A DNA stretch of 17,521 nt. Origin: Candidatus Auribacterota bacterium (lineage in GTDB: Bacteria > Auribacterota > JAFGBW01). Under the pieces are notes generated by a model that was given only the letters and a program-made list of their open reading frames with translations, had not been told where the DNA came from and made no database searches. The position numbers and the translations under genes are program-made. The stretch lies in assembly GCA_016932965.1 (NCBI GenBank), contig JAFGBW010000061.1, positions 1-17,521 of the forward strand, in the 5' to 3' direction. Within the stretch, counting starts at the first letter, position 1, and each line of letters opens with the position of its first letter. Below are positions 4,213 to 17,521 of this stretch, piece by piece.

Positions 4213-4983
4213 TTGAAAAAGACGCTTGTTTATGAGGCATATTCTCAAAACAGCTGTAACTGCACTTCGTTTATAAACTGCGGATTTCTAATAAAAGAAA
4301 TAAGATTCAACCGATCTGATTTATTCCAAATCCTGTTATTACCCTTTTGCGTTTTTCTCTTACTTATCCCGATGCGGCCTGTTTCGGCTGAAGATTCTTC
4401 GTCTTTCATACAGCAGAACGGAACCATGAACCTGGTTCAGGTCAGTCAGATCTCGGATTTAAATTTTATTCAGATTCAGCAGACAGGAAATGACAACGCC
4501 ATTACAATCCATCAGACGGGCCAGGCCAATATTTTTACAGCATTGCAGACAGGCGGGTTTCAGACTGCGGATATTGAGCAGAACGGAATCGATAACGAAA
4601 TTGAAATCACCCAGAATCTGGCGGAAAATCAGGCGCAGATTTCACAAAACGGAAGCCTGAATCTTGCCCATTGCATCCAAAACGGAAATTTCAATGAACT
4701 GTTTCTCTCTCAGCAGGGCAGTTCCAACCAGTCCAGCATCATTCAGGAGGGGGATTATCTGCGGGTCAACCAGGAACAGACAGGCGATTTCAATCAGGCT
4801 GAATCCAGCCAATGGGGAACAGACAACATCATTCATCAGATTCAAATCGGGAACTATAATAAGGCTTTTTGTCTCCAGGACGGGATGCATAACGAATGCA
4901 CCCAGATCCAGATGGGGAATGGTTATGAAATCAATATCAGTCAAAAAGGTTCTTATATGCAATGTCTGATTATTCAAAGTTAA
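4213..4983 (+). CDS. curlin-repeat amyloid protein 1 (CsgA/CsgB-like)
   Basis: Secreted curli-type fibre subunit. The TTG start at 4213 is preceded by AGGGGGA; no alternative ATG lies before residue 54. The N-terminus is unusually long for a signal peptide: a ~36-residue leader with three Cys, then a hydrophobic core (37-53) and a likely cleavage after PVSA (59). Residues 66-252 are 17 consecutive 11-residue units with pattern xxQxGxxNxxx, plus a final IIQS. Q is kept in all 17 units, G in 15 and N in 13. This is the strand-turn-strand register of curlin, predicting a long amyloid beta-solenoid. Four Cys remain in the mature part (154, 220, 229, 251), whereas E. coli CsgA has none. Whether it is major subunit or nucleator cannot be told from sequence. 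It is first in the operon with csgEFG. Confidence 0.9.
   Translation: MKKTLVYEAYSQNSCNCTSFINCGFLIKEIRFNRSDLFQILLLPFCVFLLLIPMRPVSAEDSSSFIQQNGTMNLVQVSQISDLNFIQIQQTGNDNAITIHQTGQANIFTALQTGGFQTADIEQNGIDNEIEITQNLAENQAQISQNGSLNLAHCIQNGNFNELFLSQQGSSNQSSIIQEGDYLRVNQEQTGDFNQAESSQWGTDNIIHQIQIGNYNKAFCLQDGMHNECTQIQMGNGYEINISQKGSYMQCLIIQS
4408..4968 (+). repeat. 17 tandem 33-bp units encoding 11-residue curlin half-repeats
   Basis: Codons 66-252 of the first curlin gene form 17 units in unbroken 11-residue register. Units are degenerate at DNA level but keep Gln at position 3, Gly at 5 and Asn at 8. The most divergent are those at residues 77-87 (S for G), 132-142 (L for G) and 176-186 (L for N). Confidence 0.9.
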
Positions 4984-5023
4984 GATGATCAATAGGTAAA
5001 TATAAAATAAGGAGGGAAAGAAA

Positions 5024-6073
5024 ATGAACACAAAAATCGGATCTTTAATCGTGAATTTTGCCTGTCTGGCCTGCCTGTCCGTCTATGCCTGCGCTGAAGG
5101 CAATCAGGCGACCAGCGATCAGAATGGCACCGGTAATCAGAGTGTGCAGACTCAAACAACCGGCAGCGGACATGGAATGGTGATGATTATCAGACAAAAC
5201 GGAGATTATAATACTGCAACTCAAAATCAAAATAATGACATCTCCACTACAGCCGAAATTTATCAATACTATGGGAACAATAATGCAGACCAGATACAGT
5301 TGGATTGTCAGAATAATCACGCTTATATTTACCAGGGTTATTATAACGGATCATGGTATTATGCATCATATAATTGTAATGCATTTCAGGAACAGAGTTC
5401 AGGGCATGATAACACTGCCCGTATTTATCAATACCCTTCAAACGATTCAAATGCGGGCCAATGGCAGAATTTAGGGCATAATAATTCAGCCACCATTGAT
5501 CAAATATATACAAACGGAGCGAGCGCCAGTCAATGGCAGGACAGTTCCGATACAACTTCTTCTGTATTATATATCATGCAGTACTACCAGAATCATGAGG
5601 CCTTGCAGCATCAGAATATGGGGAGCACGGGGGATGTGGCATACATAGAGCAATTCAGTTATAATGGCGGCGCGTGCTTTGCTGACCAGACTTTTATCAA
5701 TACGGCCAATATTCATACAAACATTCTGCAGTATGCAGGCAACGCGCTTGGCGAGAAAATGCATGCGGATCAAACTTTTGAGGATGCGACTTCCTGTACG
5801 GCTTTTATTTATCAGAACGGCAATCAGCTTGACGGGTTAAACTGGGCTACACAGGATATCCACGGCTACGGAAATTCGGCTACCATCTATCAATACGGCA
5901 GCAATTATAACGGCATCAGCGCTCTGCAGATCCAATATGGGGATCAAAATACCGCTTATATTACTCAAACCGGTATAAACAATATTGCCGATCAGGAACA
6001 ATATAACTTTCATGACAGCGCGACAACATTACAAAACGGCAATGCAAATAATAGTTCAATTTTCCAGCAATAA
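5024..6073 (+). CDS. curlin-like amyloid protein 2
   Basis: A 349-residue secreted protein with a short signal peptide (cleavage likely after YACA, residue 24) and ATG preceded by AAGGAGG. The mature part is rich in Q, N, G and Y with repeated curlin-type motifs such as QNGDYN, YQYYGNNN, YQYGSNYN, TQTGINN and LQNGNANN. Spacing between units is longer and less regular than in the preceding gene, with insertions between strand pairs. It is paralogous to the next gene over its whole length; the C-terminal ~95 residues align almost without gaps (for example GINNIADQEQ against GINNIAEQEQ). Four mature Cys (95, 118, 218, 258), of which three align with Cys of the paralogue. Likely a fibre subunit exported through CsgG; major versus minor role is unknown. 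Confidence 0.87.
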   Translation: MNTKIGSLIVNFACLACLSVYACAEGNQATSDQNGTGNQSVQTQTTGSGHGMVMIIRQNGDYNTATQNQNNDISTTAEIYQYYGNNNADQIQLDCQNNHAYIYQGYYNGSWYYASYNCNAFQEQSSGHDNTARIYQYPSNDSNAGQWQNLGHNNSATIDQIYTNGASASQWQDSSDTTSSVLYIMQYYQNHEALQHQNMGSTGDVAYIEQFSYNGGACFADQTFINTANIHTNILQYAGNALGEKMHADQTFEDATSCTAFIYQNGNQLDGLNWATQDIHGYGNSATIYQYGSNYNGISALQIQYGDQNTAYITQTGINNIADQEQYNFHDSATTLQNGNANNSSIFQQ

Positions 6074-6101
6074 TTAAAGAATGACAAGAAAGGAGACAAA
6101 A

Positions 6102-7400
6102 ATGAAAAAAAATGTTTGCTCGTCATTTTTTACACTCGTGTTTTTAATCTGCCTGTGCGGCATGGCGAATGCGGACGGCAACTGGACTTCGGTCAATCAG
6201 TCAGGAGCCTATAACAGTGTGATACAGTCTCAGATAACAGGCGGGGGAAGTAATATGGGAATGTCCGCCACTCAAACAGGAGACTACAATACCGCTTCTC
6301 AAGATCAGATAAACAACCAGACTTCTGTCTGCTGTTCTAACCAGCAGGGAAACGATAATCAGGCAACCCAGACTCAGACTGATTCTTCTATCATAGATAT
6401 GAATGCAAGGCAGGAAGGCAATAATTTAACCGCTGTCCAGAGTCAATCAGCTGTCGGAGATTCCTACATAGCCTGTCTGCAGAAAGAAGAAAATAACACG
6501 ATCACCCAGAATCAGTCCAATTCAGTGAATGTCAGTCTTGATGCGTTCCAGGCAGGATACTTCAACAGTATCAGTCAGGTTCAGGTGAATGCAACCGGTT
6601 CCAGTCTTGGAAGCTGTCATGAGTACTCGGGCCAGAACAACACCTCGATCCAGACACAGGCAGATTGCCAGAATAGTTCCGCGCTTATTTACCAGTCAGG
6701 AGTGCTTAACAATGCCAGTCAGGATCAAAGCAACGGACATGATAACCATGCGGAAATAGCCCAGGTCGGCGAGGCAAACGTCGCGCTTCAACTGCAAAAC
6801 AGCCCTCTCACTTCTTTTTCCTCCGCGTATATTTATCAGGCAAATTCCGGCCAAAATGCGGTACAATATATGGATCAGGGAAGTGTTGGAGACATAGCTT
6901 ATATAACACAATATGCTTATGGAGGATATTGCTACGCCGAGCAAAGATTTATCAATACATCGGGCAATACGGCTAACATCTGTCAGATAGGTGGTTTTTC
7001 TGTTTCCAATGCGTCTTCAGCGGTTCAACTCTTTCAAGGAGCTTCAGCCTGTACCAGCACCATTTATCAATGTGGTAATGAGTCTGACGGACTGAACCTC
7101 GCTTCCCAGGAAATCTGGGGGACCAATAATCATGCTTCCATCATTCAGTATGGAAATAATTACAGTGATCCCGTCATCAATGCCCGGCAGATTCAATATG
7201 CCTTTGATAATAACGCTGAAATTGAACAGTACGGCATTAATAATATTGCCGAGCAGGAACAAGTCGGCTATGGCAATACGGCTGTCCTTACCCAGAACGG
7301 CATCAATAATTATGCTCGTGAAGAGCAGTTTTCTTTTCAGGATACGGCAACCTATCATCAATCCGGAGAAGGGAACCATATTTTAAGCACACAGGGATAA
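6102..7400 (+). CDS. curlin-like amyloid protein 3, tandem paralogue of protein 2
   Basis: A 432-residue secreted protein. I chose ATG at 6102 over the in-frame ATG at 6081 because AAAGGAGA sits 6 bases before 6102 and the resulting N-terminus is a clean signal peptide (MKKNVCSSFFTLVFLICLCG, cleavage after GMANA, residue 24). The mature part carries many curlin-type QxGxxN motifs (NQSGAYN, TQTGDYN, QQGNDN, EQYGINN, TQNGINN). It aligns with the preceding gene at both ends and in the middle; extra repeats in the first half explain the greater length. Nine mature Cys, including an adjacent pair at 77-78; Cys 189, 277 and 317 align with 95, 218 and 258 of protein 2. Its TAA is immediately followed by the csgE ATG. 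Confidence 0.87.
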   Translation: MKKNVCSSFFTLVFLICLCGMANADGNWTSVNQSGAYNSVIQSQITGGGSNMGMSATQTGDYNTASQDQINNQTSVCCSNQQGNDNQATQTQTDSSIIDMNARQEGNNLTAVQSQSAVGDSYIACLQKEENNTITQNQSNSVNVSLDAFQAGYFNSISQVQVNATGSSLGSCHEYSGQNNTSIQTQADCQNSSALIYQSGVLNNASQDQSNGHDNHAEIAQVGEANVALQLQNSPLTSFSSAYIYQANSGQNAVQYMDQGSVGDIAYITQYAYGGYCYAEQRFINTSGNTANICQIGGFSVSNASSAVQLFQGASACTSTIYQCGNESDGLNLASQEIWGTNNHASIIQYGNNYSDPVINARQIQYAFDNNAEIEQYGINNIAEQEQVGYGNTAVLTQNGINNYAREEQFSFQDTATYHQSGEGNHILSTQG

Positions 7401-7811
7401 ATGAGCGTCTTATTATTAAAGGAACATCCAGCCAGAAGAAAAGACATCCTCTTCTACTGGCTGGTATTGGTTTTGTTATCTTTCTATGGGAATGGAAAGG
7501 AGCTGGATTTTTTTCTCCTGGATCAGACCCGGACCAGGAACGGCCATGAATTTTATTATGAATTCAGCCGTTTATTGATGGCTGAAGGCTTATTGAAGGA
7601 TGAAACTGTTCTGATCCGGGAATTCCCTCATCCGGTATGGGGGAATAAGTTGATTGTTTTCCTGAATGATATTCCGGTTTATCAAACTACGGTCTATCGT
7701 CGCGGGAACACCGTATCAACGATGGCGGTTCGGGGGGTGGAAGCGACAAAAAAAATATTAATCATGAAGGCGTTAAACAAGGAATTGAACGAAATAGGAG
7801 TGAAAGGCTAA
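7401..7811 (+). CDS. csgE: curli secretion accessory protein CsgE
   Basis: Periplasmic chaperone/gate that caps CsgG and delivers curlin subunits. The 136-residue length is close to E. coli CsgE (129). After a hydrophobic segment (about 16-29) the family core is recognisable: FLLDQTRTRNGHEFYYEFSR (38-57), the REFPHPVWGN stretch (73-82) matching the NERPSARWGS region of E. coli, and IVFLNDIPVYQTTVY (85-99) matching ITVNQDVIFQTFLF. The start codon directly abuts the stop of the previous gene with AGGGA upstream, so translation is probably coupled. The hydrophobic segment is preceded by an atypically long N-terminus with Glu and His, so cleavage by signal peptidase is less certain. Confidence 0.92.
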   Translation: MSVLLLKEHPARRKDILFYWLVLVLLSFYGNGKELDFFLLDQTRTRNGHEFYYEFSRLLMAEGLLKDETVLIREFPHPVWGNKLIVFLNDIPVYQTTVYRRGNTVSTMAVRGVEATKKILIMKALNKELNEIGVKG

Positions 7812-8236
7812 TGAAAGAAAATAATGATTCAACGCTATTTTTGAAGTGTTTATTAATCACAGGACTGGCATCTGTGTTTTTTTTCCAGCAAGGAACAGCA
7901 TCCGAACTGGTTTACACCCCCAAAAACCCCGCTTTTGGGGGTAATCCCAATAACGCGTCCTGGCTTCTCAACGAGGCTAATGCCCAAAATACTTATAAAG
8001 AGGAAATAGATCCGATTGAGGAATTTAAACAGCAACTGCAGCGCCAGATATTTTATCGGCTTTCCCAGGCCATGGTGACCCGCGTGTTTGGATATAATCA
8101 GGAGTTGCAGGACGGTGAATACATCATTGGAGATTATACCATCCGGGTGGATTCAAGCGGAGATTCAGGCGGAATCGATGTTGAGATCATCAGCCAGGAT
8201 GGAAGCTCAACGACCATAGAAATTCCAGGCATATAA
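7811..8236 (+). CDS. csgF: curli assembly protein CsgF
   Basis: Outer-membrane-associated factor that plugs into the CsgG channel and couples secretion to surface nucleation. The 141-residue precursor has a signal peptide (about 1-30, cleavage after QQGTA). The mature N-terminus contains the conserved block NPAFGGNPNNASWLLNEANA (39-58), the part of CsgF that binds inside CsgG, almost identical to E. coli NPNFGGNPNN. A helical middle (about 66-92) and a C-terminal beta domain (about 103-139, GDYTIRVD then SSTTIEI) follow, as in the family. Its ATG overlaps the csgE stop by one base (TAATG). Confidence 0.95.
   Translation: MKENNDSTLFLKCLLITGLASVFFFQQGTASELVYTPKNPAFGGNPNNASWLLNEANAQNTYKEEIDPIEEFKQQLQRQIFYRLSQAMVTRVFGYNQELQDGEYIIGDYTIRVDSSGDSGGIDVEIISQDGSSTTIEIPGI
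7916..7942 (+). repeat. 10-bp perfect stem with 7-nt loop inside csgF
   Basis: ACCCCCAAAA at 7916-7925 and TTTTGGGGGT at 7933-7942 are exact reverse complements within the codons for the conserved TPKNPAFGGN region. The mRNA could form a stable hairpin just after the signal-peptide codons. No U-tract follows, so it is not a terminator. Confidence 0.5.
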
Positions 8237-8250
8237 AAGGGGGGGGATTT

Positions 8251-9102
8251 TTGTTGAAACGGTTTATTGCTTTTATATGTATCGGGATGAATCTGTGTCT
8301 GGTGAACGGATGCTATTTTTCCAGACTGATTCCCAGAGAACTCAAAAAAAACAAGGCCGCTCTGTGCGCCCCCACTTCCTCATACAAGGATTTGATCTCT
8401 TTGCCCAAACCCAAAGGAAAAATCGTTGCCGCTGTTTACAATTTCAGGGATCAGACAGGCCAGTATAAGATGTATCAGGACAATGTTTCGACTTTCTCGT
8501 CCGTGGTGACCCAGGGAGCCACATCCATGCTCATCAAGGCCCTGGATGAAAGCGGATGGTTTATTCCTGTGGAAAGGGAAGGGCTTCCTGATCTCATAAA
8601 CGAAAGGAAACTCATCCATTCCTTTTCAAAAGACAATCTCTCTTCATCCTCTATTCCGTCCCTTCTTTGCGCCAATATTCTTTTTGAAGGCGGAATCATC
8701 GCTTATGAAACGAATTATTTCACGGGCGGAATCGGAGCCCGTTATTTAGGAATTGGAGCGTCAGGTCAGGTCCGTCAGGATCAGGTCACGATTTATTTAA
8801 GGGCTGTTTCTGTTATTGATGGAAGGATATTGAAGTCCGTTTCAGTGACAAAATCCATCTTTTCCAAAAGTCTTGACCTGAATGTATATAAGTATGTCTC
8901 ATTTAAAAAATTACTGGAAGCCGAAACCGGCTATAGCACTAATGAACCGCCGCAGATGTGTGTTCTGGCCGCGATTGAAAAAGCGGTGACCAGTTTAATC
9001 ATTGAGGGGATCCTGGATAATCTCTGGAGCTTGGAAAATCCTCTTGATAGCCAGTGTCCCCTGATTCAGGAATATCAGAAAGAAAAAAGGGATCTTGCCT
9101 AG
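8251..9102 (+). CDS. csgG: curli secretion pore lipoprotein CsgG
   Basis: Outer-membrane nonameric channel for curlin export. The 283 residues match the family length (277 in E. coli). Lipoprotein signal with VNGC, lipidated Cys at 21. Strong matches to E. coli CsgG include YKDLISLPKPKGKI (45-58), YNFRDQTGQ (63-71), GWFIPVEREGLPDLINERK (102-120), GGIGARYLGIGA (159-170) and LLEAETGYSTNEPP (221-234). In the constriction loop, Y75 and F82 correspond to Y51 and F56 of E. coli, but they are seven residues apart instead of five and the N55 position is Thr. Start is TTG at 8251 or the adjacent TTG at 8254; the upstream AAGGGGGGGGA suits either. Confidence 0.96.
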   Translation: MLKRFIAFICIGMNLCLVNGCYFSRLIPRELKKNKAALCAPTSSYKDLISLPKPKGKIVAAVYNFRDQTGQYKMYQDNVSTFSSVVTQGATSMLIKALDESGWFIPVEREGLPDLINERKLIHSFSKDNLSSSSIPSLLCANILFEGGIIAYETNYFTGGIGARYLGIGASGQVRQDQVTIYLRAVSVIDGRILKSVSVTKSIFSKSLDLNVYKYVSFKKLLEAETGYSTNEPPQMCVLAAIEKAVTSLIIEGILDNLWSLENPLDSQCPLIQEYQKEKRDLA

Positions 9103-9152
9103 ATTGGACTATTGTTCTCAGAAATTAACGGTCTTTGGTTTGTCAAACACAA

Positions 9153-10076
9153 ATGAAGAAAATAAAAAACATGTTTTTCTTTTCCATGAGATCATCGGGG
9201 ATTTTCATTATCTCGATATTCCTTATATTCGTGATCCACGACCAATATAAATATATCACCAGCGAACAGGCCATCATTAATGCCAGATTGACGACTTTAA
9301 GGTCGCCTATTTCAGGATATGTTCATTTTAATGACCGCATAGCTATTGGGAGCCTCTTCAAGGCCAATGAAACCTTATTCGAAGTGACCAATCCATTTTT
9401 CTGCAATTCTGAGATATACGCTCAATGCAATAATATTGAAAATCTGGCTGACGGCCTGAAAATCGAGATACGCAAGAATAATATTCAGATACAAAAATAC
9501 AAAAGGGATTACGCGCGTTCCAAAAGACTTGCCGCCATAGGGGGGGTCCCTGAAATGGATTTGGAAGATATTGCTACTTCCCTTGATATTTTACACAGCA
9601 CGGTCAAAAGCCAGTCACGACAGTTGAGAAATTTATATCGCCGTTTATCAGAGATAAAAAAACAGGTCCAGCTCCAAAAAAAAGCCGTCATCTCGTCAAA
9701 ATACCAGGGAGTGGTTTGGACAATGTTGATTAAGGAAGGCGAATACGTAAAAGCAAATGAAGATATTATACAAATGGTCAATCCTGAGGACATTACCGTG
9801 GATGCTTTTTTTAACGAAAAATATGCTTCTAGAATCACCCCCAACATAGAGGTTATGGTAAAAGATATCAGTAAAAATACTACATCAACGGGTAAAATCA
9901 TATTTATTCGCGGCGGATCAGGCAGGGTGATGTATAATTCAGTGGTCGAAAATCCTCCTGAAACCTTATCCAGACGGCTCATGGCCGTGAGAATACAAAC
10001 ACAAATAAATGATGACTATAATCATTCTGAGTTTTACGGCATTGGCCGCAGCATGAAGGTGATAATCAAACGCTGA
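9153..10076 (+). CDS. HlyD-family membrane fusion protein (periplasmic adaptor)
   Basis: An inner-membrane anchored periplasmic adaptor of 307 residues. It has one transmembrane segment (about 16-28), an N-terminal lipoyl half with NARLTTLRSPISGYV (about 44-58), an alpha-helical coiled-coil hairpin (about 90-180, rich in K, Q, R), a second lipoyl half (about 188-215, YQGVVWTMLIKEGEYVKA) and a beta-barrel end. This order is classic for EmrA/HlyD-type proteins. Neither the ATG at 9153 nor the in-frame TTG at 9135 has a good ribosome binding site; I prefer the ATG because it gives a normal Lys-rich cytoplasmic end. The gene ends two bases before the glycosyltransferase start, so the two are probably co-translated partners, comparable to the BgsB-BgsA and Alg44-Alg8 pairs of polysaccharide systems. 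Confidence 0.88.
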   Translation: MKKIKNMFFFSMRSSGIFIISIFLIFVIHDQYKYITSEQAIINARLTTLRSPISGYVHFNDRIAIGSLFKANETLFEVTNPFFCNSEIYAQCNNIENLADGLKIEIRKNNIQIQKYKRDYARSKRLAAIGGVPEMDLEDIATSLDILHSTVKSQSRQLRNLYRRLSEIKKQVQLQKKAVISSKYQGVVWTMLIKEGEYVKANEDIIQMVNPEDITVDAFFNEKYASRITPNIEVMVKDISKNTTSTGKIIFIRGGSGRVMYNSVVENPPETLSRRLMAVRIQTQINDDYNHSEFYGIGRSMKVIIKR

Positions 10077-10078
10077 GT

Positions 10079-12190
10079 ATGCCTTTGAAAAGAGATCATA
10101 TTCGTTTTGTAATATTATTGCTTATTTGTTCGGGTATAGCTTATCTTTGGTCCGACCAGACGGCTTTCTATGACATCTTGTCCACAGTGAAATATTTTTT
10201 TGATTTCATCCGATATCAGTTTCAATCGCTGCAGGATTATGACACTAATTTTTCGGTGAAATTGCCCTTTTATATTACGTTAGCGTTAACTTTATTAGGG
10301 ATTTTTATTTTTCCGAAACCCCCAAGAATAATTTCCATTTTAGCCGTGGCATTATTAGCGGTCAGCCATACCCTATATATTTTGTTCAGAACATGCTGCA
10401 CCCTATCCTATACGGATACCTTCGATTTTATTTTAATGCTTCTGCTGTGGTTTACCGAGGCGGTTATTTATTTATGCTCGGTTTCTTTATATGTTCAGAT
10501 TTTTTTTAAGGTGAACCGCAGCAGACAGGCTGATCAGTATTCAAGAGATGTCATCAGCGGCAGGTATGCACCCCCTGTGGATGTATTCATTACAACTCAT
10601 TCAGAACCTATCGATATGATTAAACGCACCGCGGTTGGCTGTCAGGCAATGACCTATGCCAATAAACGGGTCTATATTTTAGATGACGGCAATCGCGACT
10701 CGGTGAGGCTGCTTGCTGAAGAACTGGGGTGTCATTATATCTCAAGAAAAAATAATATTCACGCAAAAGCAGGGAATATCAATCATGCTTTAGCTCAAAC
10801 TGATGGCGAGTTCATCGCCCTCTTTGACGCGGATTGTATTCCGCTTAACCATTTTCTTATTCGTACCGCGGGTTTTTTTCAGGAGAATGATGTGGGGATG
10901 GTGATAGGGTCCCAGGCATTTTATAACGGGCAAATAGTCGAACATAATATCATGTCTCTTATGGAATTTTCCCGGTTTTTCCAATTGACCCAATCCGGCC
11001 GTGATTATTTTAACGCCATTTTATGTTATGGAACCTGTTACGTTGTACGCAGGACAGCAATAGAAAAAATAAAAGGGATTCCGACAGAAACATTGTCAGA
11101 AGACTGGGCCACTTCGATTAAATTACAGGGCAGCAACTATAAAACCTATGCTTTGAATGAAATCCTAGGCGCCGGAGCTGTAGCTGAATCCATGAGTGAA
11201 TTCCTGAAACAGCGCATCCGATGGACCCAGGGCACATTGCAATCCCTGTTCTCTAGTACCAATCCTTTGACACATAAAGGTTTATCCTTGATGCAAAGAG
11301 CCATACACAGCTATGGTCTGCTTCATTATCTGATCAATCCCTTTTATCTTTGTATTATCATCCTGCCTATTCTGTACTTTTTTCTGGGTTTCTCCCCGTT
11401 CAATATTTCTTATGAACAATTCTGGATCATTATCATGCCTTTTTTTTGTTTGAATTTTTTTGTGTTTTCCTGGTTGTGCAATGAATTCACCTCCAAAATC
11501 AGCATTTTTGTAAGCGAAAGTTATCTGAGTTACCATCTCACTATCGCAATCATGAAAACGTTATTGAGGCCTTTTGGATGGAAATTCCGCGTAACAAATA
11601 AAAATATGCATAGGAAGGATCCCCATTTTAATGCCGATATCGGCGTTCCTCAGATTATCTTCATCATTTTTACCTTGATCGGGATCAGTTATGGTTATAT
11701 CCACAAAGACTGGCAAACATCAGAAGCGTTGTTTTATTTTTTGGCGATATTTTCAATTGTTCGGATTTTATTTTTATGGATTGGTCTATATGCGTCATTT
11801 GATTTACCTCAATTGCGCAAAGCGGTTCGGATGCCCCAGGTCATTGATTGTGTGTTAGACACGAAAACAGGTTCTGAGGCATGCACGACGGTCAATATTT
11901 CTGAGAACGGAGTGTTATTAAAGTGTCATTCTCTGAATAAGATCAACTTGGAGACGGATGCCTTATGCTCACTGAATATATTTCATTTGACTATTCCGGT
12001 TAAATTTATCCGCTCACAAGGCTCATGCATTGCCTTATCTTTTATCGATCTTTCATTGATGGCCTATCGTATTATTATTGAGCAGTTGTACTGTAAGCCC
12101 AGTCAATGGGATGATCAGGGAAATCTGGATATGAAAGTCCTTCACGCTCTATTTCATGCGTTAACTTTCAAGAAAATAGCACGGCCTTGA
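10079..12190 (+). CDS. BcsA-like processive glycosyltransferase (GT2) with PilZ domain
   Basis: Inner-membrane polysaccharide synthase, 703 residues. N-terminal membrane segments (about 8-24, 64-80, 84-104, 114-142) precede the cytoplasmic GT-A domain (about 165-390) with DDGN (202-205), DAD (250-252), the acceptor loop CYGTC (316-320), SED (340-342) in place of the usual TED, and QRIRW (378-382). More membrane helices follow. FRVTNK (503-508) matches the FxVTxK gating loop of cellulose synthase. The C-terminal PilZ domain keeps both c-di-GMP motifs: R580-x3-R584 (RKAVR) and NISENG (606-611). Substrate is probably a UDP-hexose and the product a beta-glucan-type polymer, but linkage cannot be read from sequence. 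No bcsB, bcsC or bcsZ gene is in the window; the HlyD-type gene upstream takes the partner position. Confidence 0.92.
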   Translation: MPLKRDHIRFVILLLICSGIAYLWSDQTAFYDILSTVKYFFDFIRYQFQSLQDYDTNFSVKLPFYITLALTLLGIFIFPKPPRIISILAVALLAVSHTLYILFRTCCTLSYTDTFDFILMLLLWFTEAVIYLCSVSLYVQIFFKVNRSRQADQYSRDVISGRYAPPVDVFITTHSEPIDMIKRTAVGCQAMTYANKRVYILDDGNRDSVRLLAEELGCHYISRKNNIHAKAGNINHALAQTDGEFIALFDADCIPLNHFLIRTAGFFQENDVGMVIGSQAFYNGQIVEHNIMSLMEFSRFFQLTQSGRDYFNAILCYGTCYVVRRTAIEKIKGIPTETLSEDWATSIKLQGSNYKTYALNEILGAGAVAESMSEFLKQRIRWTQGTLQSLFSSTNPLTHKGLSLMQRAIHSYGLLHYLINPFYLCIIILPILYFFLGFSPFNISYEQFWIIIMPFFCLNFFVFSWLCNEFTSKISIFVSESYLSYHLTIAIMKTLLRPFGWKFRVTNKNMHRKDPHFNADIGVPQIIFIIFTLIGISYGYIHKDWQTSEALFYFLAIFSIVRILFLWIGLYASFDLPQLRKAVRMPQVIDCVLDTKTGSEACTTVNISENGVLLKCHSLNKINLETDALCSLNIFHLTIPVKFIRSQGSCIALSFIDLSLMAYRIIIEQLYCKPSQWDDQGNLDMKVLHALFHALTFKKIARP

Positions 12191-12265
12191 AATGGGTAAT
12201 TCTTTTTCTTTTTTCTTTGTAAGGCGATATAAAAAAATGTAATTTAGGATAAAAAGGATAATGAT
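12191..12265 (+). other. 75-bp spacer before the small PilZ gene
   Basis: AT-rich, with no hairpin-plus-U-tract terminator. An AAGGAT ribosome binding site lies 6-7 bases before the ATG at 12266. Read-through from the glycosyltransferase gene is likely. Confidence 0.5.
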
Positions 12266-12670
12266 ATGCAGTCTGTCAGAAAAAGAAGGATCAGTAAAGC
12301 CAGTCATCCGAAAATGGAGACTCCTCCATCTCTTATTCGGGAAGAACGGAAAAAAGATATACGAAGAAAAATACGGGTCATTTGCAAAATTACGGATGAT
12401 ACTCTGTTTGAGAGCGTTACGTACGATATCAGCCTGACGGGTCTGTTTGTCATGGTGCATAGTCCCAAAGTACTCAATAAGATTTGTGTCGGTATGGAAC
12501 TCCATTTTTACGTGGAATATGATTTCGATACGATGATACGGCTGAAGGGTATTGTTTCCCGTGTGCAGCGTGATGATCCTTCTTACGAAAAGAACGGTTT
12601 TGCCATTGCTATTTCTGAAATTTCTTCGGACAGTGTTCATTTGTTGAAAAAAATAATAGCATCTCTTTAG
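12266..12670 (+). CDS. small stand-alone PilZ domain protein (c-di-GMP receptor)
   Basis: A 134-residue cytoplasmic protein with no signal peptide or membrane segment. The basic N-terminus (1-37) ends in the first c-di-GMP motif, R33-x3-R37 (RRKIR), and the second motif is DISLTG (54-59), matching DxSxxG. The rest follows the six-stranded PilZ barrel, with G75-M-E-L-H-F near the middle and NGFAIAISEIS near the end. Both motifs are intact, so ligand binding is expected. It lies directly downstream of a synthase that already has its own PilZ domain, so it probably controls a different step of the same matrix pathway. Start ATG follows AAGGATAATGAT. Confidence 0.9.
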   Translation: MQSVRKRRISKASHPKMETPPSLIREERKKDIRRKIRVICKITDDTLFESVTYDISLTGLFVMVHSPKVLNKICVGMELHFYVEYDFDTMIRLKGIVSRVQRDDPSYEKNGFAIAISEISSDSVHLLKKIIASL

Positions 12671-12768: not shown

Positions 12769-13434
12769 ATGAGAATAATACGAAAGTTAATCCTGTTTGG
12801 CCTTTTTTGTTTCTTCACGGGAGCATGGGGGATCTGTGAAACAGTGAAAGATTCCCTGGAAATGCGGATGGAGATTGCCCCCCGTTACGAGCTGCGGATT
12901 GAAACATTTCTAAGCGCATTAGAAAAATCATACGCCGGCGGTGAATTATTGACTCCATCCAAAAATGTGATTACACCGGATAAGGATCTGAACGGCATGA
13001 TTGATCTGGGGCACTTGATAGCCAGGAAACAGGGCGACAAGGTTCTTCCTCTGATCAGTGAATATCATGTTTTGATGAAGGTATATTGCCTTACCAACAA
13101 AAACAAGTCCTATGTCCTGACCCAGAAAATGAATTCTCCTCTGACAGGTGTGCTGACCAATGAAACCATTCCAGGCAAAGCATTTGTTTCCCAGGCCCAG
13201 ATTGATCCGAAAGAAGGACAAAACAAGGGGAATATTGTGATTGTTTCTGAGACCCCCGTCACTCCTGGCGACCTCCAGACTGTTTATGAATCAGCCCAGA
13301 CGGGAGAGGAATATCTGGGGAATGTGATCGATATTCGGTATTGGATCAGTGATCAGCAGGAGGAGAATGTCCCGCCGACTCAGAGGGCGGATACCTATAA
13401 AACAACGATCACTTTAACCATGGTTGAATTATGA
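12769..13434 (+). CDS. secreted protein of unknown family, first gene of a coupled trio
   Basis: A 221-residue protein with a signal peptide (hydrophobic core about 7-20, cleavage near residue 22-24). I do not recognise the family. The body looks beta-rich: alternating strands such as EYHVLMKVYCLT and GNIVIVSETPV, and it ends in TYKTTITLTMVEL. This last strand resembles the GxYxxxxxxxV terminal strand of fimbrial-type subunits, so a pilin-like or adhesin-like beta-sandwich is possible. Only a weak TAGG lies upstream of the ATG. Its TGA overlaps the next gene's ATG (ATGA), so the two products are probably made in linked amounts. Role is inferred from context only. Confidence 0.82.
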   Translation: MRIIRKLILFGLFCFFTGAWGICETVKDSLEMRMEIAPRYELRIETFLSALEKSYAGGELLTPSKNVITPDKDLNGMIDLGHLIARKQGDKVLPLISEYHVLMKVYCLTNKNKSYVLTQKMNSPLTGVLTNETIPGKAFVSQAQIDPKEGQNKGNIVIVSETPVTPGDLQTVYESAQTGEEYLGNVIDIRYWISDQQEENVPPTQRADTYKTTITLTMVEL

Positions 13435-14900
13435 AACGTTTTTATGTCAGCAGTTGTCTGTTCTTGATGGTATTTTTTCATATTACCGTTTCCGGTTTCG
13501 CTGTGCCTATGATCGACTGTTCCCCCCAGGAAATCAATATCGTTTACGATACACGGCAAATCAGTGATCCTTTCTCTGAAAAAATTGTAAATAGTGACGG
13601 AAGCCTTGCCACTTCCTTGAAAACAGATGAAAAGGTGTCTTCTTTAAATAATAATAATTTGAATATCCCGTTGAACATGACTGTCTATGAAGACATGAAA
13701 GCTTATAAACTTTCTGTTATTCAGGATTTCCCTTTCTCCATGGATCAGAATATTCAGATTTCCATCCACCTGCCTGCTTTGATGAATCCCATGACAGACG
13801 GTGAGTTTATGGTTTCTTCTCCCTTGAATGTTTCAACCGTTGAGCAGGTCTTTTTTTCAAATACCGCGCCGGCTTTTCAGATGCAGCAGTTTACTTTTTA
13901 TGTGGATGTTCTTATTCCGGAAGATATCCGCTCAGGGAATTATCAAGCCAACATGAAATTTATTTTATATCAGGATGAACTGCCGGTTGCTGAACGTTCT
14001 ATCCGTGTTACTGTGGATGTTTCCGGATTCATGGCTATGGAAGTTTTTTTTATGGATTCCAATTACAAGGGACTGGATTTCGGATTGGTCAATGCGGACC
14101 TTCTCCGTCAGGATAAGTTCATGAAAATCCGGGTTATGTCCAATATGCAGACCCCGTACCGTCTCCTCCAGCGTCGCGGCAAGGATATGAAAAGTAATCT
14201 GACTGGGGTTGATTTTAATGAAGAAGGAATTTATTATCAAGTAGATAAGACAGGTCTTAAAGGGAGTATTGTGACTGAACAGGCCCAGCAGCTTAAAGCC
14301 GAGGATGAACTGATTTATGAATCCGATGCCGAGGGTTCTTCTGACCTTTTATCTCTTGTTTATTCTGTTGTGAACCTGAATTTACTGAAGGCGGGAAAAT
14401 ATAAGACAACGTTGACTTATTTTATTGAGTCTACTTCTTCAAGTCAGTCGATACCATCTTTGGTTCTCACATTTGATCTGATTGTGGAGATTGAGAAAAT
14501 CCTGCGTTTCAGCGTCTATCCGGAAAACAATGAAATCAATCTTGATTTTTCGCCAAAAGGGATGGAAGAACCCGTCACCGACCGTCTACTGAAGATTGAA
14601 GTGATTTCCAATACGGGGAAAACGTATCGTTTTTACCACTCACTTCCTAATGGACTCCTCAACAAGGATGGGGGGGTTGTTCCGCCTGAAAAAATCACGT
14701 TTGCGAAATGTGACGCAACCGGAATTATTTTGAGCGGATATGATTTCCAAACCGTCTCTCCATCAGATCATCTCATCTATGAATCCAATATCACAGGTGA
14801 TTCCGATCAGTTTTTTGTCCGGTATCGTGTTGAATATGATCAAAGCCAGATGGCGGGTGTCTATCGTTCGGACCTCCAGTTTATTCTGACCGATGATTAA
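13431..14900 (+). CDS. secreted protein of three beta-rich modules, unknown family
   Basis: A 489-residue protein with a signal peptide (about 1-24, SGFA). No named family recognised. The body reads as three modules: about 30-200, 201-352 and 355-489. The second and third are clearly homologous to each other: LDFGL and LDFSP near their starts, KIRVMSN and KIEVISN, then ELIYESDAEGSSD and HLIYESNITGDSD, then LLKAGKYKTTLTYFI and QMAGVYRSDLQFIL. The first shares the last element (IRSGNYQANMKFILY). The AGxYxxxLxFxL strand is like those of fimbrial and spore-coat-U type subunits. After that strand modules 1 and 2 have a further strand, while module 3 stops. This suggests a tip or shaft subunit completed by a partner, but that is inference. 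Overlaps both neighbours. Confidence 0.82.
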   Translation: MKRFYVSSCLFLMVFFHITVSGFAVPMIDCSPQEINIVYDTRQISDPFSEKIVNSDGSLATSLKTDEKVSSLNNNNLNIPLNMTVYEDMKAYKLSVIQDFPFSMDQNIQISIHLPALMNPMTDGEFMVSSPLNVSTVEQVFFSNTAPAFQMQQFTFYVDVLIPEDIRSGNYQANMKFILYQDELPVAERSIRVTVDVSGFMAMEVFFMDSNYKGLDFGLVNADLLRQDKFMKIRVMSNMQTPYRLLQRRGKDMKSNLTGVDFNEEGIYYQVDKTGLKGSIVTEQAQQLKAEDELIYESDAEGSSDLLSLVYSVVNLNLLKAGKYKTTLTYFIESTSSSQSIPSLVLTFDLIVEIEKILRFSVYPENNEINLDFSPKGMEEPVTDRLLKIEVISNTGKTYRFYHSLPNGLLNKDGGVVPPEKITFAKCDATGIILSGYDFQTVSPSDHLIYESNITGDSDQFFVRYRVEYDQSQMAGVYRSDLQFILTDD

Positions 14901-17521
14901 GAGGCTTTTTTTCAAAACTTTCGGGTATGTCTTTTCTTTGTTTTTTTTGACTTTTTCTATTCAATCCCAGGAAGAAGAATCGAATATTCCCATCATTCCG
15001 ACTACCTTGACGTTAGAATATCATAAAGAGGCGAGGGTCCCTCTGCAGAATTATAAACGGCATTTGTTGATGAATCCTAACGTGGCGAGCGTTTCGAGAG
15101 CCGAGAACTTTCTCATTGTTAGGGGAGAAAATATTGGTGAAACCTCGTTGATTATCTGGCTGGACAGACGTTACAGTATTATCGTCAAGGTGATCACGCC
15201 TCCTGTCCAGATTTCAAACCAGCAAAAGATGTTGGAGCGTAAAAGGATGGAAGCAACCGCCGTGATTTTTCAAATTGACTACTCGTTCGGCAGAACTGCG
15301 ATTGGGGAGGAGTACAGCGAGCTTGAGGAAGATAGCAAGAGCCAAAATGCCAAATTCACCATGGAAAGCCCTTTTATAAAAAATACGAGAATAGGACTCA
15401 ATGGGGAATGGCTGGATGTTTCGGCAAGGGATGCAAATTTTGAATTGTTTTCCGGTTATATTTCCAATATTCGCTGGCCTGAATCTCAAACTTACCGTAT
15501 CGATGTCGGCAGTGTGTCTTCTTTTGGTGGAAATTATTCCAATCCGGGGGCTTTCCAGGGAATCAGTTTGTATCCGTTGAGATTAGGACAAACCAAGAGT
15601 TTCAGTCTAGGATTATGTATGGGCAGACTGGAAGAAGATAAAAACCGTTACTGGTCAGGCACGTTCTATGCTCCGGGAAGCGTTCAAACTTCCTGGTATA
15701 CATCATCCCTGCTGATTCCTGAAATAGATAAAAGGGATTTTTTAAAAATTAGAACGAGATATTCAAAGGGCCGTTCCACTATATGGGGGATGCAGCATAT
15801 CTGGATATTTGACTGGCTGAATTTTTTTCAATCTTCTGATGATCCCAAGAATGAAAGCGGTTCTTTGAAATCTTTTTATGATTTGAATTTGAAATTATCT
15901 GACCGGAAGCAAAATTATGAAATCATGCTTGGCGGGGCAATGGAGGAGACACCCTATTATTCTGTTACTTATTCACGGATGTTGGGGAATTTACACATGA
16001 AAATTTCAAGACAGGAGGTAACCGATAATACTCATAGCATCAGACAGACACTGGTTGGCTCTGCAAGAAATGAGTTATCCCTTCTTTATTCAAAGATCTG
16101 GACCGTCCATAAATGGCTGAAGTCTTTTAAAACGGGCTGGACCATCACCGATCAATCTCAAAATATTTTGTCTTCTTTCTCACGGGACACGGAAAATCGG
16201 GTTCTTGTAAATCAATTGTTTGCGGAGAGTGTCATCAAGGATAACCGTATCCGTCTTTTCACCAATCAGACAGATGCGAGTGATAATGTCAACAATCCGT
16301 ACCAGAAATTGGATTACGGAATCCAGATATACAAGCCTTTCGTTTTTTTGATCCAGGGAAACTTGGGACTGAGTTATACCCACTCCTCCATGGAACGCAC
16401 TACCAATGAAACCTTGACGTCTGATTTGACTTATCTCGGCGGATCACTGAATTTGAATTTATTTAAATATCTTTCTTATGGACTCAATATCTCCCAAAAT
16501 ACGGATGAGGAACAGGAGAGGGACAGCAAGACTCAATCGGTCACTCAAACCCATTCATTATACAGTTATTACCCGTTTTCGGAAAAAATTTCGGCAAGTT
16601 TAGGGTACAGCTATTCTTTGTCCAATACGGACACGCAATACCTGTTTACCTCCAATGAAGCCCAATCGCATCATATCAGTTCCTCTGTTGCTGCACGATT
16701 GAATGATTCCAGTTCCTGCAGAGTCAATTACATGGTCACATTACAGGAACAGACGGATGATACCCGTCAGGTCAGATCTCAGCTCTCAGCCACTTTCAGC
16801 AGCCGTTTTTATACCCTTTTTGGATGGAAACCTAAGACTGAAATCAGCGTGATCGCTTTCATTGATATAAATGGGAGCGGCACCTATGAGGAGGAGATAG
16901 ACAAGCCTGTGCCTGACCTGCCCATCTTTTTGAATAATAAGGATATCGGGCATACCAATCCAAGAGGAAAGCTGTTTCTGGGAAAAATCAGAGGGTTTAA
17001 AAAGACCGTATCAACTGAGATGCCGAGTTTTCTGGAGGGGTATATTTTTTCGACGCAATCCAAGTATGAATTGCATGTTTCCGGGCATGGTACTGAAACC
17101 TGTCTGTTTGGATTTGCATTGAATACCTCTGTATCCGGAACGGTTTATAACAACGTGAATAGGAATGATGAGTTGGACGAAGAAGATGAATTTTTACCCA
17201 ATGTTTTTGTGACTCTTTCAAATGGGATGTCCGCCAGAACCGATTTAAGAGGAAGATTTTATTTCAGCCCTGTTCCTGAAGGGGATTTTGAATTGGCCGT
17301 TGATTCATTCAGTCTTCCTGAAGGTTATATCTCTGCCGAAGCTTTGAAAAGAACCATCTCAATCAGTAAGGGATCTTCAATCCGTTCCGATTTTTGTCTC
17401 AATGCCATGCGTATTCTTAAAGGGCAGATCATGGTCATACAAAAGAGAAGACCGGTTCCATTCAAGGGATTGCTGTTGAATCTGGCCGGTCAGAAGAAAG
17501 TCACGAGTGAAAAAGGAGGAT
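14893..17521 (+). CDS. large outer-membrane usher-like protein: pilus/secretin N-domain, predicted barrel, SdrD-B-like modules (3' end cut)
   Basis: The frame is open from ATG at 14893 to the window end (876 codons, incomplete). The start overlaps the previous stop by 8 bases; no ribosome binding site is evident, so translation is probably coupled. Signal peptide about 1-25. Residues 37-102 resemble the N-terminal domain of pilus-assembly secretins of the CpaC/RcpA type: NPNVASVSRAENFLIVRGEN followed by IGETSLIIWLDR. Residues about 120-645 are long alternating amphipathic, aromatic- and Ser/Thr-rich strands, as in a large outer-membrane barrel. Two SdrD-B/carboxypeptidase-regulatory-like modules follow, with DINGSGTYEEEIDKPVPDLP (658-677) and NVNRNDELDEEDEFLPNVFV (about 753-772), then TDLRGRFYFSPVPEGDFEL. 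A third begins near 840. The layout recalls fimbrial ushers without usual usher motifs. No secretin channel domain is visible. Confidence 0.88.
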   Translation, partial: MIKRLFFKTFGYVFSLFFLTFSIQSQEEESNIPIIPTTLTLEYHKEARVPLQNYKRHLLMNPNVASVSRAENFLIVRGENIGETSLIIWLDRRYSIIVKVITPPVQISNQQKMLERKRMEATAVIFQIDYSFGRTAIGEEYSELEEDSKSQNAKFTMESPFIKNTRIGLNGEWLDVSARDANFELFSGYISNIRWPESQTYRIDVGSVSSFGGNYSNPGAFQGISLYPLRLGQTKSFSLGLCMGRLEEDKNRYWSGTFYAPGSVQTSWYTSSLLIPEIDKRDFLKIRTRYSKGRSTIWGMQHIWIFDWLNFFQSSDDPKNESGSLKSFYDLNLKLSDRKQNYEIMLGGAMEETPYYSVTYSRMLGNLHMKISRQEVTDNTHSIRQTLVGSARNELSLLYSKIWTVHKWLKSFKTGWTITDQSQNILSSFSRDTENRVLVNQLFAESVIKDNRIRLFTNQTDASDNVNNPYQKLDYGIQIYKPFVFLIQGNLGLSYTHSSMERTTNETLTSDLTYLGGSLNLNLFKYLSYGLNISQNTDEEQERDSKTQSVTQTHSLYSYYPFSEKISASLGYSYSLSNTDTQYLFTSNEAQSHHISSSVAARLNDSSSCRVNYMVTLQEQTDDTRQVRSQLSATFSSRFYTLFGWKPKTEISVIAFIDINGSGTYEEEIDKPVPDLPIFLNNKDIGHTNPRGKLFLGKIRGFKKTVSTEMPSFLEGYIFSTQSKYELHVSGHGTETCLFGFALNTSVSGTVYNNVNRNDELDEEDEFLPNVFVTLSNGMSARTDLRGRFYFSPVPEGDFELAVDSFSLPEGYISAEALKRTISISKGSSIRSDFCLNAMRILKGQIMVIQKRRPVPFKGLLLNLAGQKKVTSEKGG

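Follow-up and report, generated by a model that had tools for sequence, protein, structure and literature searches.

The last three genes of the Candidatus Auribacterota contig JAFGBW010000061.1, here called P1, P2 and P3, probably encode the subunits and the outer-membrane gate of a pathway that would build a surface pilus or polyadhesin in chaperone-usher-like fashion, in which the chaperone would be of the WxLIP type and the usher an unrecognised protein made of a barrel plus SdrD-B modules. Structures of such chaperones have otherwise been solved only from Gram-positive surface-protein clusters, and the candidate gate, P3, matches no known gate family. The analysis shows four things: that the order of the genes recurs, that the modules of P1 and P2 are related, that the chaperone belongs to a WxLIP-like family, and that the model of P1 resembles pilins. 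The stretch of DNA analysed (the window) is the entire contig, 17521 bases from an assembly about 93% complete, and since it stops at the contig end, the C-terminus of P3 is cut and any downstream genes lie outside view.

Three conserved genes and their pilin-like modules

The three genes all lie on the + strand, with ends overlapping by 4 and 8 bases, and each protein starts with a readable signal peptide. A preliminary description of the window had taken these overlapping open reading frames to be one unit, and the overlaps are confirmed. In a second genome of the same order, a Ca. Auribacterota metagenome-assembled genome from Zodletone spring (G002; 77% complete; record JAFGJP010000265.1, locus L008), P1, P2 and P3 are kept in the same order at 24-31% identity (31% for P1, 24% for P2). 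The conservation of all three in that order shows that they are not chance reading frames. The homologue of P3 in that genome (P0005) is full length, at 911 amino acids (aa). The features of the trio are as follows.

12769..13434, + strand: P1, a candidate pilin of 221 aa, with a signal peptide, an N-terminal extension and one pilin-like module
12856..12876, + strand: alternating hydrophobic stretch LEMRMEI of P1, donor-strand-like on direct reading (weak evidence)
13431..14900, + strand: P2, a candidate multi-domain (tip) subunit of 489 aa, with an N-domain and two pilin-like modules
14031..14435, + strand: middle pilin-like module of P2 (aa ~201-335), aligned by hhalign to the C-terminal module of P2
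14517..14897, + strand: C-terminal pilin-like module of P2 (aa ~363-489), aligned by hhalign to P1
14893..17521, + strand: P3, a candidate usher-like outer-membrane protein of 876+ aa that runs off the contig end
15004..15168, + strand: pilus-N-like domain of P3 (aa 38-92), from a sub-threshold match to PF13629 and the alignment with G002
15220..16827, + strand: putative outer-membrane barrel region of P3 (aa ~110-645), suggested by aromatic-rich alternating strands
16840..17520, + strand: SdrD-B/CarboxypepD-like modules of P3 (aa ~650-876, incomplete), from weak Pfam matches

One module is common to P1, which has a single copy, and P2, which has two (profile comparison, E 1e-7 to 6e-11). In hhalign runs the P1 module aligns with the P2 modules at 94-96% (E 1e-7 to 9e-9), the C-terminal module of P2 with P1 at 95.7% (E 9e-9), and the middle of P2 with the C-terminal module of the same protein at 97.1% (E 6e-11). 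Comparisons that came out negative in these runs had probabilities of only a few percent, reaching at most 15.8%, for the chaperone described below against EcpB. Pfam gives no match for P1, P2 or their homologues, the WxL domain included, and profile searches of the PDB with P1, P2, P3 and the alignment of six modules found no significant match.

The structure of P1 was modelled with AlphaFold2 from that six-row module alignment, its rows taken from the window and G002 only, and the model reached a predicted local distance difference test (pLDDT) score of 73.6 and a predicted template modelling score (pTM) of 0.73. Chaperone-usher pilin subunits account for 17 of the best 50 PDB entries against this model (VIA-align). 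The pilin matches listed are CsuE, CsuA/B, FimH, FimG, FimI, the pilin domain of PapG, PapK, PapA, CfaB, CS17 and CS20, with CsuE at Z 6.3 (3.2 Å, 105 residues aligned) and the FimH pilin domain at Z 6.0 (3.3 Å, 113 aligned). The Z values for chaperone-usher pilin domains, 5.0-6.3, lie below the level that would exclude a merely common arrangement. Foldseek matches of P1 to CfaB (prob 0.99) were not relied on, given TM values of 0.35/0.43 and a root-mean-square deviation of 12 Å.

In these pilin alignments the model is matched from roughly mature residue 14 onward. The mature N-terminus before that point contains the strictly alternating hydrophobic stretch LEMRMEI, with ISFTFDM in the same place in G002 (a chance of about 6% for each). 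The stretch falls within the low-confidence tail of the model and is placed as a donor strand would be, a weak hint that it might act as one. The fimbrial look that had been ascribed to P1 and P2 is supported by the shared pilin-like module and by the resemblance of the P1 model to chaperone-usher pilin subunits.

A WxLIP-like candidate chaperone and its company in two phyla

In G002 the order is P1-P2-chaperone-P3 on one strand, with a 1-base overlap followed by gaps of 17 and 20 bases. The chaperone candidate between P2 and P3 is a secreted protein of 270 residues and two domains. One homologue of it was found in the window's genome (assembly about 93% complete), on contig C11 (31% identity, E 5e-36), and chaperones of this kind are also found on five Deinococcus plasmids. 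The proposal that the trio does without a chaperone, and hence follows a logic different from that of chaperone-usher pili, accordingly finds no support; the earlier impression arose from the contig end and from where the gene is placed. The logic is chaperone-usher-like, and it is the parts that differ.

A profile of 18 chaperone sequences, compared with all of the PDB, found one clear molecule, EfmWxLIP1 of Enterococcus faecium (9i25, 9i1y; E 6e-10), the match spanning profile positions 37-267 of 272 and so covering both domains. A profile of the seven chaperones from P3-type loci or their genomes also placed EfmWxLIP1 first (E 0.002, first domain), with the fimbrial chaperone EcpB at E 0.55. 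In Pfam, PF06030 appears in chaperone relatives at sub-threshold level only; the chaperones have no match to the Pfam pili-chaperone families and no significant match to a PapD-family structure. Judged by the 18-sequence profile, whose match extends over both domains of a known structure, the chaperone is a member of the WxLIP-like family. A strand of WxLIP has been proposed, from AlphaFold2 complexes, to insert into a gap in the WxL domain and so complete its sandwich (PMC10599100). That would amount to strand donation, and by analogy the same act may be what P1 and P2 undergo.

On C11 (L010:2584-5273) the chaperone gene is flanked by genes for two secreted proteins (260 and 215 aa) that match no Pfam family and are possibly further clients of the chaperone; the set adjoins flagellar fliH/I/J-like genes.

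The Deinococcus loci were reached by a search of plasmids with the full-length P3 homologue. Each of five plasmid records encodes a chaperone, a P3-like protein (839-1090 aa) and one or more small secreted proteins, and in all five the chaperone gene adjoins the P3-like gene or precedes it by one gene. On four of them the chaperone follows a secreted protein of ~290 aa and is itself followed by one of ~175-190 aa, after which comes a P3-like protein of 1013-1090 aa. In D. deserti the set is a secreted protein of 164 aa, the chaperone and a P3-like protein of 839 aa. The chaperones of Auribacterota and Deinococcus match over their full length (99.6%, E 1.4e-23), and the P3 modules of the two phyla align by hhalign at 97.5% (E 5e-12). 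It is possible, and I put it forward tentatively, that the loci of the two phyla represent a diderm pilus pathway in its own right, with a chaperone of the WxLIP family in place of PapD and, as the gate, a barrel-SdrD-B protein unrelated to known ushers. Chaperone matches were also found in Streptomyces and Nonomuraea: no P3-like gene is annotated beside the one Streptomyces locus inspected, and the Nonomuraea record is nearly unannotated.

The D. deserti chaperone (L068:6423-7193) is annotated as a "FimB/Mfa2 family fimbrial subunit" and looks like a misannotated WxLIP-like chaperone. Three further Auribacterota genomes, all of one family (L054-L064), have 3 to 7 copies each of WxLIP-like chaperones, with very large proteins and small, secreted, sandwich-like ones encoded beside them. 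The large partners are either of 1260-1660 aa with TIG domains or of 1085 aa with TPR, a questionable barrel and SLBB; the chaperone family appears expanded here, with a partner of a different type. These large proteins were tested as relatives of P3, with a negative result. Two of the loci (L056:5082-11043 and L062:6084-12030) share a conserved set of four genes, encoding a secreted protein of 233 aa, the chaperone, a secreted protein of ~347 aa and a protein of ~1085 aa that combines TPR and a strand-rich middle part with a Poly_export/SLBB domain at the C-terminus, as if a polysaccharide-export-type domain had been fused into a chaperone-pilin operon.

P3 as a candidate gate, and the alternatives

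P3 had been described as joining a secretin-type pilus N-domain, a barrel of roughly 500 residues and SdrD-B-like modules, and these three parts fare differently. The N-domain matches PF13629 only below threshold (E 0.0024, 18.0 bits, cut-off 23), but its position is conserved in the alignment with the G002 homologue. It is not a general feature of P3-like proteins, those of Deinococcus carrying Ig-like N-terminal domains instead. The modules are weak in the window's protein (SdrD_B at E 0.016; SdrD-B/CarboxypepD modules at E 0.0044-0.019) but clear in the full-length homologue P0005 (E 4e-14, 5e-10 and 1e-9). The barrel is not confirmed. Amphipathic alternation is mildly raised, with z against shuffles of 1.7 for the window's P3, 2.6 for that of G002, 4.1 and 6.1 for Deinococcus proteins and 3.3 for the FimD control, but the test also scores the soluble P2 (1.8) and the N-terminal Ig region of a Deinococcus P3 (3.1). 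It therefore separates poorly, and the barrel is something that I infer. The usher family PF00577 gives no match in P3 or its homologues and none in the 44 genomes of the phylum, the E. coli control being positive, and a PHROGs search gave no match. An usher-like role, proposed for P3 at the outset, is still the reading that best fits the architecture of the protein and the genes around it.

In outline the pathway would run as follows. P1 and P2 would be exported to the periplasm by Sec, where their pilin-like sandwich modules would lack, or be able to exchange, one strand. The WxLIP-type chaperone, periplasmic and of two Ig domains, would hold them by lending a strand and pass them to P3 in the outer membrane, which would comprise an N-terminal periplasmic docking domain, the barrel, and the SdrD-B/CarboxypepD-like modules, which would serve as a plug or for docking at the C-terminal end. 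At P3 the N-terminal extension of P1 would displace the strand of the chaperone, and P1 would polymerise into a fibre, with the multi-domain P2 probably as the tip subunit. Strand donation and the service of P3 as usher are, like its barrel, inferred parts of this scheme.

Several results weigh against the proposal. The trio occurs together in only 2 of 44 Auribacterota genomes, the window's own and G002, and no chaperone gene lies inside the window's P1-P2-P3 operon, up to the contig end. All Z values of the P1 model are below 7, and under Z 8 unrelated sandwiches also occur: those among the matches listed include AP2 mu2 and the best row of the fold search, TLP-1a (9ikj), which could not be placed. 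The fold likeness of P1 is for these reasons support and not proof. The AlphaFold2 model of P3, made from 2 sequences, has a pLDDT of 28 and carries no information on a barrel, and by hhalign the barrel regions of Auribacterota and Deinococcus are without detectable homology to each other and to FimD/EcpC. The small secreted proteins of Deinococcus are without detectable homology to P1 or P2. Finally, SdrD-B modules are generic, so that it is chiefly the gene neighbours and the architecture that speak for homology of P3 across the phyla; at the level of sequence the link appears to consist of those modules and the neighbouring chaperone.

The strongest rival, though an unlikely one, is that P3 is an outer-membrane anchor or a displayed adhesin, held by its barrel with the SdrD-B modules as an outward stalk, while the secreted P1 and P2 bind to it without polymerising. 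SdrD_B/CarboxypepD modules are chiefly familiar from surface adhesins, as stalks or spacers, those of a Deinococcus P3 match SdrD at E 8e-14, and the P3 model gives no barrel width by which to judge a gate. But P3 is constantly accompanied by a WxLIP-like chaperone and secreted sandwich proteins, and the C-terminal modules of real ushers are sandwiches too; the comparison of the D. deserti P3 with the usher domain CooC_C (E 0.27) is not significant.

It is less probable still that the trio is in fact a chaperone-usher operon of the classical, archaic or alternative type whose sequences have diverged too far for Pfam to recognise. The division of labour would be the same, the P1 model resembles the pilin domains of FimH, CsuE and CfaB, and EcpB is a faint match to the chaperone. 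However, PF00577 is absent from P3 and from the whole set of 44 genomes, the chaperone profile finds WxLIP at a significant E and not the many solved chaperones of the PapD family, and the N-domain of P3 is pilus-N-like (Ig-like in Deinococcus), not PapC_N.

Known systems, neighbouring genes and significance

Chaperone-usher pili are regarded as a single family whose defining parts are PapD chaperones and PF00577 ushers. The proposed pathway resembles members of that family (classical Fim/Pap, archaic Csu, and CFA/I and ECP of the class 5/alternative type) in its secreted sandwich subunits with repeated modules, its compact operon, its gene for a two-domain periplasmic chaperone beside one for a large outer-membrane candidate, and the pilin-like model of P1. 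It differs in the other N- and C-terminal domains of the gate protein and in the lack of a PF00577 usher and of a match to the PapD family; since both defining parts were sought without success, I do not count it as a member. The WxL/WxLIP (DUF916-DUF3324) clusters of Gram-positive bacteria have a homologous chaperone with small and larger sandwich proteins beside it, but the hosts here are diderm, a P3-type protein stands in place of wall attachment, chaperones of the operon type stop at the end of their second domain and lack the C-terminal membrane helix of WxLIP, and Pfam finds no WxL domain in the subunits. The Deinococcus plasmid operons, annotated as "hypothetical" or "carboxypeptidase regulatory-like", share the chaperone, the P3-like architecture and the small secreted proteins, but their secreted proteins and barrel are without detectable homology, and they have an Ig-like domain instead of the pilus-N.

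The family NF058581, "Pam pilus system pilin subunit", matches the C-terminus of P2 at E 0.0016 over 42 residues, but with 18.5 bits it is far below the cut-off of 55. It gives no match in the G002 homologue of P2, and searching the window's genome at E 0.001 found nothing, though no control responded either. Should NF058581 stand for a pilus of this kind, some of the system would already be known. The literature searched, whose scope left out most subscription papers and preprints, yielded no description of the system and no paper on the Pam pilus system.

Upstream in the window, at 4213-9102, is a complete-looking curli operon encoding three curlin-repeat (CsgA/B-like) proteins of 256, 349 and 439 aa together with CsgE, CsgF and CsgG. 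A search for CsgF gave no match in the two other genomes of the order, G002 included. The gene order of the trio, whose recurrence with or without curli had been left to be seen, does recur in G002, and there without a CsgF match. A link between curli and the trio was for this reason rejected (within the limits of an assembly 77% complete), and curli is taken to lie near the trio without working with it. The interval that separates the two, 9135-12670, holds genes for an HlyD-like adaptor, a glycosyltransferase-2 protein with a C-terminal PilZ domain and a separate PilZ protein, which look like an exopolysaccharide set under the control of cyclic di-GMP. That P3 might be the outer-membrane porin of such a pathway, with P1 and P2 as accessory matrix proteins, is suggested by these PilZ genes just upstream and by exopolysaccharide genes on the G002 contig, but the latter are divergent from the P operon, the Deinococcus loci have none beside the set, and P1, P2 and the chaperone suit the assembly of protein, not the export of sugar, all of which makes this reading very improbable.

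If the proposed pathway is real, the chaperone-usher way of building a pilus arose, or was re-equipped, more than once. A function would be supplied for operons now called "hypothetical" on the plasmids of Deinococcus, whose hosts include cultured species. It would also offer an origin for the WxL system of Gram-positive bacteria: that surface system and the chaperone-usher pili of Gram-negative bacteria would be two outcomes of a single family of strand-donating chaperones.

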